From: an uncultured Caryophanales bacterium
GTDB taxonomy: Bacteria > Bacillota_I > Bacilli_A > RF39 > UBA660
Direction: 5' to 3'
Length of the DNA stretch: 32,651 bases
NCBI GenBank assembly: GCA_945228905.1
Contig: CALYOH010000007.1
Location: 1 to 32,651, forward strand
Shown: positions 1-32,651 of the stretch, piece after piece
Layout of the letters: each line of letters begins with the position of its first letter
Position numbering within the stretch: the stretch's first letter is position 1
The notes under the pieces: generated by a model
Told to the model about the DNA's origin: nothing
The model's database searches: none
What the model saw: only the letters and a program-made list of their open reading frames with translations
Position numbers and translations under genes: made by a program

Positions 1-46
1 TACACGCGTAAGATCGTCGGCAGCGTCAGATGTGTATAAGAGACAG
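1..46 (+). other. Residual Illumina Nextera i5-side adapter (P5 tail, 8-nt index GCGTAAGA, TCGTCGGCAGCGTC + AGATGTGTATAAGAGACAG)
   Basis: Exact match to the Nextera read-1 transposase adapter at 14-46, preceded by TACAC and an 8-nt index. Confidence 0.98.
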
Positions 47-28103: not shown

Positions 28104-30716
28104 CTATTTTGCTTCGTACCAGTTAGTTCCTGTTTCTATTTCTACTTTTAATGGTACTTGTAATTTATATGTATTTTCCATTATATCTCTTACTAATTTC
28201 TTTACTTCTTCTAATTCATCATTATGAACATTTAATATTAATTCATCGTGTACTTGTAGAAGAATCTTCGTTTTTAATTTTCTTTTTAATAATTCTTCAT
28301 ATAGTTCTACCATTGCTTTTTTAAGTATATCAGCAGCGGTTCCTTGGATTGGAGTATTTAGAGCCATTCTTTCTCCACTACTTCTAATCATATAGTTCTT
28401 AGACATTAATTCTGGTATTACTCTTCTTCTATTCATTAGAGTTGTTACATAACCATTAGAATATGCTTCTTTCTTTTCATTTTCCATATATTCTCCAATT
28501 CCTGGAAAAGCATCTAAATATTTATCTATAAAGTCTTTTGCTTCTGCAACATTTATACCTAAATCTTCTGATAATCCAAAACTACTTATTCCATAAATTA
28601 TACCAAAGTTTACTGCTTTAGCAGTTCTTCTCATAGTTTTATCTACTTGATCTATTGGTACATGATAAATATCACTCGCTGTCTTACTATGAATATCTAA
28701 ATCATTTTTTAAAGCTTCTATCATTTGAGTGGCTTTTGCCTGTGATGAGAATACTCTTAATTCTACTTGTGAATAGTCACTTGATAATAATACTGAATCT
28801 TCATCTGGAATAAATGCTTTTCTAATCATTCTACTATATTCATCTCTTGCTGGTATATTCTGAAGATTTGGACTAATACTTGATAATCTACCTGTACGTG
28901 TAAGTGTTTGTGTATAAGTAGTATGAATTCTACCATCTTCTCTTATTTCGTTTATTAAACCCACTGCATAATTTGAATATAATTTAGATAACATTCTATA
29001 TTCTAATATTTTATCTACTATAGGATTAACAAAACTAATTTTATCTAAAATATCTTTATTAGTTGAATATTTACCATTAGTTACTTTCTTTGGATATGGT
29101 ATTTGCATATCTACAAATAGAACTTGTGATAATTGAGCTGGACTATTAATATTAAATTCTTTATTTGCTAAAGAATATATTTCTTTTTCTAGATTTTTAA
29201 TTTTAATATCTAATTCATCTCTTACTTCTTCTAAGTATTTTTTATCTACTTTAATACCAGTTAATTCCATATCAGCAAGTGCATATACTAGTTTCATTTC
29301 TATATTATTAAATAATTCTTCTTCATTATACTCTTTTATCTTATTTAATAATTCTTCTTTTGAATCATAAATAAATTTTGCTTTTGAAATAGTTACATTG
29401 TGTAATTTATCATCATCTACTAGCATTGGTCTTTTAATTGTACCAAATACATCTTCAAATTTAGGTATATCATAACCCATAGTATTTGCTAAAAAGCTTA
29501 TATCATCTTTAATTTCATAATCTGATAAGTATGCTGCTAAAGATGTATCGTAATTACAATTATTTATTTTAATATTATATCTATCTAATAAAACTATACA
29601 TTTCTTTAAATCATAAGTATATTTATTACTATTAGTTGTAAATAAATCTTTATATTTAGATATTTCTTCTTCCTTTAAGAAATATCCTGCTTCTCCATCA
29701 TAGAAACTTATTCCTAAGATATCACTCTTACTATATACTTCTCCCATGCTTTCTATATAGAATGAGAAGTCTTTATTATAATCAAAGTCTTTAATATCTT
29801 TTATTATTAATTCATCATTTTTCTTTACTTCATTATTATCTTCTACTTCTCCTATAAGATTATATTTTTTTAATAATGAATGGAATTCTAATTCTTCTAA
29901 TATTTCTTTTAACTTTAAATTATTAATTCCAGTATATTTACAATCTTCTAATGTAAAGTCTAAATTAACATCTTTTACAATAGTTGCGAGATTATAAGAC
30001 TTATAGCAATTATCTTTATCTTGAATTAATTTATCTTTAATCTTACCTTTAATACTATCAATATTACTATATAGATTATCTATTGAACCATATTCTTTTA
30101 TTAGTTTAATAGCAGTCTTTTCTCCTATTCCTTGAACTCCTGGAATATTATCTGATGGATCTCCCATAAGGGCTTTTAAATCTATCATTCTTATTGGTTC
30201 TACTTCATATGTTTCTATAAATTTATTTCTATCCATCATTATATGATCATTACTTTTTAATACTCTTACTATTACATCATCTTCAATTAATTGTAGTAAG
30301 TCTTTATCACTACTTATTATTTCACAATCAAAATCTGAATCTATATGTGCTTGATATGATAATGTTCCTATAATATCATCTGCTTCATAATAATCCATTT
30401 CATGATATTTAATACCCATTGCATTTAATACTTCTTTTGCTACCGGAAATTGTTTTTTTAAATCATCAGGTGTATCACTTCTACCAGCTTTATATTCATC
30501 ATATGCTTCATGTCTAAACGTTTTTCCTTTATCAAAAGCAACTAATATGTATTCTGGTTTATCTTCTCTTATGATTCTATTCATCATATTAATAAATCCA
30601 TATAATGCATTAGTTGGGAATCCTTTAGAATTACGCATAATTACTCCACTATAAGCAGTTGCGTAATAACTTCTAAATACTAAGTTATTTCCATCTACAA
30701 GTAATATTTTTTTCAT
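28104..30716 (-). CDS. polA: DNA polymerase I
   Basis: 5'-nuclease domain, polymerase A motifs DYSQVELRV, RRTAKAVNFGIIYG, LLQVHDELI. Confidence 0.98.
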   Translation of the reverse strand: MKKILLVDGNNLVFRSYYATAYSGVIMRNSKGFPTNALYGFINMMNRIIREDKPEYILVAFDKGKTFRHEAYDEYKAGRSDTPDDLKKQFPVAKEVLNAMGIKYHEMDYYEADDIIGTLSYQAHIDSDFDCEIISSDKDLLQLIEDDVIVRVLKSNDHIMMDRNKFIETYEVEPIRMIDLKALMGDPSDNIPGVQGIGEKTAIKLIKEYGSIDNLYSNIDSIKGKIKDKLIQDKDNCYKSYNLATIVKDVNLDFTLEDCKYTGINNLKLKEILEELEFHSLLKKYNLIGEVEDNNEVKKNDELIIKDIKDFDYNKDFSFYIESMGEVYSKSDILGISFYDGEAGYFLKEEEISKYKDLFTTNSNKYTYDLKKCIVLLDRYNIKINNCNYDTSLAAYLSDYEIKDDISFLANTMGYDIPKFEDVFGTIKRPMLVDDDKLHNVTISKAKFIYDSKEELLNKIKEYNEEELFNNIEMKLVYALADMELTGIKVDKKYLEEVRDELDIKIKNLEKEIYSLANKEFNINSPAQLSQVLFVDMQIPYPKKVTNGKYSTNKDILDKISFVNPIVDKILEYRMLSKLYSNYAVGLINEIREDGRIHTTYTQTLTRTGRLSSISPNLQNIPARDEYSRMIRKAFIPDEDSVLLSSDYSQVELRVFSSQAKATQMIEALKNDLDIHSKTASDIYHVPIDQVDKTMRRTAKAVNFGIIYGISSFGLSEDLGINVAEAKDFIDKYLDAFPGIGEYMENEKKEAYSNGYVTTLMNRRRVIPELMSKNYMIRSSGERMALNTPIQGTAADILKKAMVELYEELLKRKLKTKILLQVHDELILNVHNDELEEVKKLVRDIMENTYKLQVPLKVEIETGTNWYEAK

Positions 30717-30746
30717 AATTAATCACCATTTCTAGTATAACAAAAA

Positions 30747-30772
30747 AAATAATAATTTTGAAATTATTATTT
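30747..30772 (-). terminator. Rho-independent terminator downstream of the small SOS ORF and its hairpin region
   Basis: Minus strand AAATAATAATTT-CA-AAATTATTATTT followed by TTTTT. Confidence 0.7.
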
Positions 30773-30777
30773 CTTTT

Positions 30778-30830
30778 TAGTTACTTTTAGTAAATACGAA
30801 AGAAGAGTAAAGAAAACCTAAAAGTAACTA
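30778..30830 (-). ncRNA. Structured 3' region or putative sRNA: 13-bp stem with a 27-nt loop carrying an anti-Shine-Dalgarno segment
   Basis: TAGTTACTTTTAG (30778-30790) / CTAAAAGTAACTA (30818-30830); loop contains 30793-30807, complementary to the RBS at 31033-31047. Confidence 0.55.
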
Positions 30831-30876
30831 TGTTCCTCCTCCACCAGATGTAAACATCTGGATTTTTACAGGTTAA

Positions 30877-31026
30877 TTATTTACTTAATTTAATAGCGAT
30901 ACTTGTTTGTTCTTCGACAGAATTTTTTTCTAATTGTTCGAATCTACAACTTACAAAAAATAAGTATAGTAAGAAAATTAAGTAAATCCCCACAATAATT
31001 AAACCTGTTTTAATACGTTCTGACAT
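30877..31026 (-). CDS. 49-aa single-TM small protein, candidate SOS-induced membrane peptide / division inhibitor (missing from ORF track)
   Basis: MSERIKTGLIIVGIYLIFLLYLFFVSCRFEQLEKNSVEEQTSIAIKLSK*; RBS AAAGGAGAG; consensus promoter with LexA box; divergent from lexA. Confidence 0.8.
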   Translation of the reverse strand: MSERIKTGLIIVGIYLIFLLYLFFVSCRFEQLEKNSVEEQTSIAIKLSK

Positions 31027-31055
31027 AAAATTCTCTCCTTTCGTATTACACCTTT

Positions 31056-31084
31056 ATTATATATCGAACATTCTTTCGGGTCAA
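31056..31084 (-). promoter_or_regulatory. Promoter of the small ORF with LexA operator in the spacer
   Basis: TTGACC (31079-31084), 17-bp spacer, TATAAT (31056-31061); CGAACATTCTTTCG (31065-31078) is one mismatch from CGAAC-N4-GTTCG. Confidence 0.85.
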
Positions 31085-31092
31085 TAGTAATT

Positions 31093-31106
31093 AAAACATT
31101 TGTTTG
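31093..31106 (+). promoter_or_regulatory. Second putative LexA operator, overlapping the lexA -35 box
   Basis: AAAACATTTGTTTG with AAAC-N4-GTTT dyad; lexA promoter TTGACA (31104-31109), 17 bp, TAAACT (31127-31132). Confidence 0.65.
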
Positions 31107-31154
31107 ACATTTTACACTATTGATGGTAAACTTAATTTATGAAGGAGGAATACT

Positions 31155-31775
31155 ATGGAGAAGTTAACTGGAAAACAAAAGATTATATTAGATATACTTA
31201 AAAGATTAATCGCTAAAAATGGTTATCCACCTACGGTTAGAGAGATTGGTAAAGAAGCTAATTTATCATCTCCGGCAACAATACATTTCCATTTAAAGAA
31301 ATTAGAGGAAAAAGGATATATTAAACAAGATCCTAAAAAGAATAGAACAATTGAAATATTAGTTCCAAATGAATATTTAGAAACTCAAGATGATAAAGTT
31401 GTAGAAGTTCCTTTACTTGGAAAAGTTACTGCAGGTACTCCTATTGAGGCTATTGAGATGCCTGATGAGTTTTTCTCTTTACCTACAAATTTAATAACAA
31501 CAAAGAATGATATATTTTCTTTAACTGTATCAGGTGAATCTATGATTAATGTTGGTATCTATGATGGAGATATATTAATTGTTGAAAGAAGAGATACTGC
31601 TAGAAACGGTGAGACTGTTGTTGCTATGAACGATAATAATGAAGCAACTGTTAAAACATTTTATAAAGAAGATGGATATTTTAGACTACAACCTGAAAAT
31701 GATACTATGGAACCTATTATATTAAAAGAGTGTACAATCTTAGGTAAAGTAATTGGTTTATATAGAAAATTATAA
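31155..31775 (+). CDS. lexA: SOS repressor LexA
   Basis: LTGKQKIILDILKRLIAKNGYPPTVREIG wHTH; cleavage-site AG (KVTAGTPIEA); catalytic SGESM and Lys in EATVKTF. Confidence 0.98.
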   Translation: MEKLTGKQKIILDILKRLIAKNGYPPTVREIGKEANLSSPATIHFHLKKLEEKGYIKQDPKKNRTIEILVPNEYLETQDDKVVEVPLLGKVTAGTPIEAIEMPDEFFSLPTNLITTKNDIFSLTVSGESMINVGIYDGDILIVERRDTARNGETVVAMNDNNEATVKTFYKEDGYFRLQPENDTMEPIILKECTILGKVIGLYRKL

Positions 31776-32604: not shown

Positions 32605-32651
32605 CTGTCTCTTATACACATCTCCGAGCCCACGAGACCTCTCTACATCTC
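32605..32651 (+). other. Residual Illumina Nextera i7-side adapter (CTGTCTCTTATACACATCT CCGAGCCCACGAGAC + index CTCTCTAC + ATCTC)
   Basis: Exact match to the Nextera read-2 adapter in reverse orientation, followed by an 8-nt index and the start of the P7 tail. Confidence 0.98.

Follow-up and report, generated by a model that had tools for sequence, protein, structure and literature searches.

The characterized genes of the lexA-divergent slot in Gram-positive bacteria encode inhibitors of cell division (PMC6851548). One of them, SosA of Staphylococcus, is described as a LexA-controlled protein of 77 aa that has a single transmembrane (TM) segment near the N-terminus, an outer tail of ~47 aa, and no LysM domain. 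The residues just outside the membrane are required and conserved, and the extreme C-terminus is less conserved. The protease CtpA turns the protein over, probably via its C-terminus, and truncation of SosA to 47 aa abolishes its activity (PMC6851548). YneA of Bacillus and Listeria (NF010723), which is likewise operator controlled and has one N-terminal TM segment, reaches the division site through its own TM segment together with TM7 of FtsW. To block septal synthesis, it requires the LysM domain, YneA without LysM being inactive (PMC13396833). The structure models of the same authors also place SosA, ChiZ, and SidA on FtsW, and SidA of Caulobacter is described as an SOS division inhibitor that has one TM segment, is very short, and acts on this protein (PMC13396833). 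The SOS-induced membrane peptides further include that of tisB in Escherichia coli, which is small, hydrophobic, and LexA controlled (PMC8145889). Our searches for literature on the SOS response in the RF39-type order gave nothing.

In the window (i.e., the whole 32,651-nt stretch of DNA analyzed here), a gene for a 49-aa single-TM protein lies on the minus strand at 30877..31026 (translation of 31026..30877, MSERIKTGLIIVGIYLIFLLYLFFVSCRFEQLEKNSVEEQTSIAIKLSK), divergent from lexA (31155..31775, plus strand; 206 aa; TIGR00498, E value 1.4e-64). The small ORF is preceded by a good ribosome-binding site, AAAGGAG (31035..31041, minus strand), of which AAGGAG is 8 nt 5' of the ATG. Upstream of this is the minus-strand promoter (31056..31084), which consists of TTGACC (31084-31079), a 17-nt gap, and TATAAT (31061-31056), with 11/12 matches. 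The palindrome CGAAAGAATGTTCG, which has one mismatch to CGAACNNNNGTTCG, takes up bases 1 to 14 of the spacer and represents a LexA-like operator (O1, CGAACATTCTTTCG; 31065..31078). A second LexA-like operator (O2, AAAACATTTGTTTG; 31093..31106), proximal to lexA, is located 28 nt from O1 and overlaps the -35 element of the lexA promoter (TTGACA-17-TAAACT; 31104..31132, plus strand). By eye, the LexA protein has kept both its Ala-Gly cleavage site and, in the protease domain, the Ser and Lys residues. The downstream neighbor, polA (28104..30716, minus strand), has a promoter-like site of its own and is outside the unit. Between the small gene and polA, a 142-nt stretch (30735-30876) contains an AT-rich hairpin resembling a terminator, along with two inverted repeats. 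Among the relatives compared, this stretch was common only to Bacillales bacterium UBA3789 (L123), the closest named relative (LexA 97%), and it occurs once in the genome; the hairpin (30844-30861), considered as a conserved part, was rejected for the same reasons. An apparent Nextera sequencing adapter was seen at both ends of the contig (window positions 14-46 and about 32605-32640; TCGTCGGCAGCGTCAGATGTGTATAAGAGACAG and CTGTCTCTTATACACATCTCCGAGCCCACGAGAC), so the ORFs at these ends run into artifact.

The N-terminus of the 49-aa protein is positively charged and predicted to be inside, followed by an uncharged TM segment (residues 9-27) and a tail of 22 aa (residues 28-49). The AlphaFold2 model is a single helix (residues 2-47), in which the tail is of low confidence (pLDDT ~60). 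Pfam and NCBIfam models detected no LysM domain, and searches of Pfam, NCBIfam, PHROG, and PDB gave no significant match, only chance-level ones. The original prediction, made from the letters of the DNA, thus proved accurate on the gene itself: a 49-aa, one-TM ORF divergent from lexA, with a tail of roughly 20 aa and no LysM, under a promoter in which a LexA box covers 14 of the 17 spacer bases. The YneA model NF010723 did not match the ORF, and its only match in the same genome was elsewhere and below the cutoff (22.5 bits versus 60); hhalign also found nothing when run against a YneA sequence whose identity was checked only through the score that it gave with NF010723 (93.9 bits).

The conservation in relatives on which the original prediction depended was borne out. 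In 291 genomes of the same family, the best tblastn matches of the 49-aa protein adjoin lexA, and 126 of the 146 distinct lexA loci of the family have, divergent from lexA, a small ORF that encodes one TM segment and is preceded by a ribosome-binding site. Its length is 44 to 64 aa at all but three of these 126 loci, and its start is 109 to 147 nt from that of lexA at 117 of them. With the distance and length limits combined into one strict rule, 123/145 loci passed, compared with 0.17% of dinucleotide shuffles and none of 143 loci on the other strand. A profile of 72 members detected a single copy in each genome, and the 21 matches with E values under 1e-9 all adjoin lexA. The pooled pN/pS ratio of the small gene was 0.33 (60 pairs, which are not independent) and that between the window and UBA3789 was 0.28, with a value of about 0.05 for lexA; the small gene is thus fast evolving yet constrained. 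Going by their record titles, most of the relatives listed are assemblies of uncultured Bacilli sampled from rumen and gut. An alternative is that the ORF is untranslated, conservation being limited to the promoter with its LexA operator or to a noncoding transcript. The frame is indeed just 49 aa, and a lone operator box within 32 kb is compatible with chance (shuffle mean, 0.85). Against this, the size, start position, ribosome-binding site, and TM segment are all conserved, the codons are under purifying selection, and the protein profile is restricted to one lexA-adjoining copy per genome, so that this alternative is already contradicted by the conservation and has a negligible chance of being correct. 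On this comparative evidence, the small ORF is a real gene.

The operator in the promoter appears to belong to this gene. At 116 of the 126 loci with the gene, an operator is inside the spacer of a TTGACA-17-TATAAT-like promoter. O1 was found at 125/126 loci with the gene but at only 3/20 without it (Fisher, 3e-18), and O2 was kept at 19 of the 20 loci lacking the gene. Because the loci are related, a count of pairs on the LexA tree is fairer than the Fisher figure: of seven independent pairs, about six agree and none disagree on the co-occurrence of gene and O1 (P of about 0.03). In this count, L091 was scored as gene bearing, its ORF having missed only the hydropathy cutoff. Since O1 follows the gene and O2 persists without it, the two operators seem to be divided between the genes, with O1 assigned to the small gene and O2 to lexA. 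Only one other box with one mismatch occurs in the 1.56-Mb genome, inside an apparent tmRNA gene. A relaxed consensus (at most one mismatch) gave 29 sites in the genome versus 31 for a reversed-pattern control; few of the 29 are intergenic, and these include O2 and a LexA-like operator 70 nt upstream of recA (AAAACAATTGTTCG; L231 position 1501; G000:C8:6033-6046), which suggests an intact LexA circuit. A further LexA-like site between genes (CAAACATTTGTTCT; L245 position 1501; G000:C38:5303-5316) is 30 nt upstream of a gene for a 285-aa protein, the first 60 residues of which had no clear Pfam match and which by eye resembles phage Bro-N/antirepressor proteins. These patterns are consistent with a scheme in which LexA would bind O1 and repress the small gene by occupying the promoter spacer; after DNA damage, active RecA would stimulate the self-cleavage of LexA, and the small gene would be induced along with lexA and recA.

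The gene beyond the small ORF is polA at 80 of the 126 loci, as in the window, and tkt at 19. In a sister family (f11, with several complete genomes), three loci have the order lexA, a 57-aa TM protein gene, DUF896/ynzC, and tkt, and the loci of the 57-aa protein bear LexA-like boxes. In Bacillus, tkt presumably comes after ynzC. In Bacillus pumilus, lexA, yneA, yneB, and ynzC have consecutive locus tags (PMC3896406). The order in f11 resembles that in Bacillus, which suggests that the small protein fills the yneA slot, bounded in these relatives by lexA and by ynzC plus tkt. The 57-aa protein is likened to the 49-aa family through this position. The small gene shares with yneA the divergence from lexA and a LexA-like operator in the promoter; it differs in that yneB was not seen, polA is next in the window, and the product lacks LysM and is half as long as YneA.

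This location also bears on the second function considered in the original prediction, that of a TisB-like peptide that is induced in the SOS response and depolarizes the membrane, leading to dormancy. Like TisB, the protein is small, hydrophobic, and, by its sequence, LexA controlled. However, TisB is a 29-aa type I toxin with a charged/polar membrane helix, whereas the TM segment here is free of charged residues in 94 of 122 family members and has a low hydrophobic moment (0.09), and the polar tail is conserved and includes a juxtamembrane motif. No RNA family match indicated an antisense antitoxin near the gene (the sole Rfam match, to U6atac, scored 16.3 bits against a cutoff of 33 and was attributed to chance), and the stop codon is only some tens of bases from polA in most close relatives, which leaves little room for an antitoxin RNA in cis. 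Together with the placement in the yneA slot, these features make a TisB-like function improbable. The TisB-like part of the original prediction is therefore disfavored, and there is good support for its other part, membership in the functional class of yneA/sosA, namely, the presence of the gene at 126/146 loci, the co-loss of gene and operator, and the synteny of the slot.

Within that class, the 49-aa protein shares with SosA the divergence from lexA, the small size, the single TM segment, the lack of LysM, and a conserved juxtamembrane segment. It is shorter than SosA (49 versus 77 aa) and appears to repeat the SosA plan at a smaller scale, with a positive N-terminus, an uncharged TM segment, a juxtamembrane motif, and a C-terminus that commonly ends in K or R. 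Across the aligned members, Y15 is invariant and R28 and L32 are nearly so. The juxtamembrane motif [RK]-phi-x-x-[LM]-[EDN] was identified in 78 of the 81 members with a LexA identity of 69% or more, and a C-terminal K or R was present in 64 of 85 nearer members. Our favored reading, which we consider probable, is that the protein is an SOS-induced, LysM-less, SosA/YneA-like division inhibitor with an outer tail of ~22 residues that probably acts on FtsW. Like YneA and SosA, the bitopic product, with the predicted topology of an inner N-terminus, one TM helix, and about 22 residues outside, would hold back septation to allow repair of the damage. Its TM segment would dock on the septal synthase FtsW, the juxtamembrane R-phi-x-x-L-E segment would replace the role of LysM in YneA or of the longer tail in SosA, and a CtpA-like protease would later remove the protein. 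The division arrest, the target, and the turnover are all projected from the described systems; in the genome, the FtsW family is represented by a single gene (G000:C47:4380-5450), as are the S41 proteases. SidA is likewise very short, and it is not known to be located in a lexA-divergent slot. Given that both YneA without LysM and SosA cut to 47 aa are inactive, so short a tail must act in a way that is without precedent so far.

Two further features speak against the inhibitor reading, namely, the lack of detectable sequence homology to YneA and the distant members without the motif, which was identified in just 10 of the remaining 37. These highly diverse outer members are tied to the family by place, size, topology, and operator, not by sequence, and may be homologs or replacements. 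The same diversity is compatible with an SOS-induced small membrane protein that tunes another membrane enzyme, a transporter, or a protease and leaves division unaffected. Many small TM proteins are modulators, and FtsW as a target is something that we infer; however, the synteny fits the division inhibitors that characterized lexA-divergent genes encode, and we regard a modulator as unlikely, although worth serious consideration. In kind, the 49-aa protein is best read as a minimal, LysM-less member of the YneA/SosA functional class; by sequence, it is not a member of the YneA family.

The presence and absence of the gene on the LexA tree require 10 to 13 changes, for which an ancestral gene with repeated losses is the simplest account if the root of the tree holds. 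We propose, tentatively and with the balance slightly against it, that these proteins are an order-wide, ancestral family of SOS division inhibitors of minimal form, for which a single TM helix and a tail of ~22 residues suffice to stop septal synthesis without a peptidoglycan-binding domain, and which share the position and perhaps the descent of yneA/sosA. In YneA, the TM segment finds FtsW and LysM is required for inhibition, and SosA needs its longer tail; a TM segment with a short conserved tail would be a smaller natural design. If so, the family, with its many diverged variants and its clean losses in nature, would reveal the minimum required for jamming the septal synthase, and a DNA damage checkpoint would be added for a large, uncultured group of gut Bacilli. 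The gene itself is a conserved one that was missed by size cutoffs and family libraries.

In a sample of the class, lexA matches at an E value of 1e-30 were obtained, among the families listed, only in the same family, f8, and f11; most of the class may therefore lack such a LexA. Two loci of the sister family (L209 and L210) are without the 57-aa ORF and have, by eye, a seeming decayed end remnant (...MSYQL...) before ynzC. In six other lineages (L080, L082, L086, L098, L113, and L219), the lexA-divergent slot is occupied by a different, larger gene. By eye, these larger genes are interrelated (...EKARKLLF[SN]SKNQ...), and the two that were compared with Pfam had no match.
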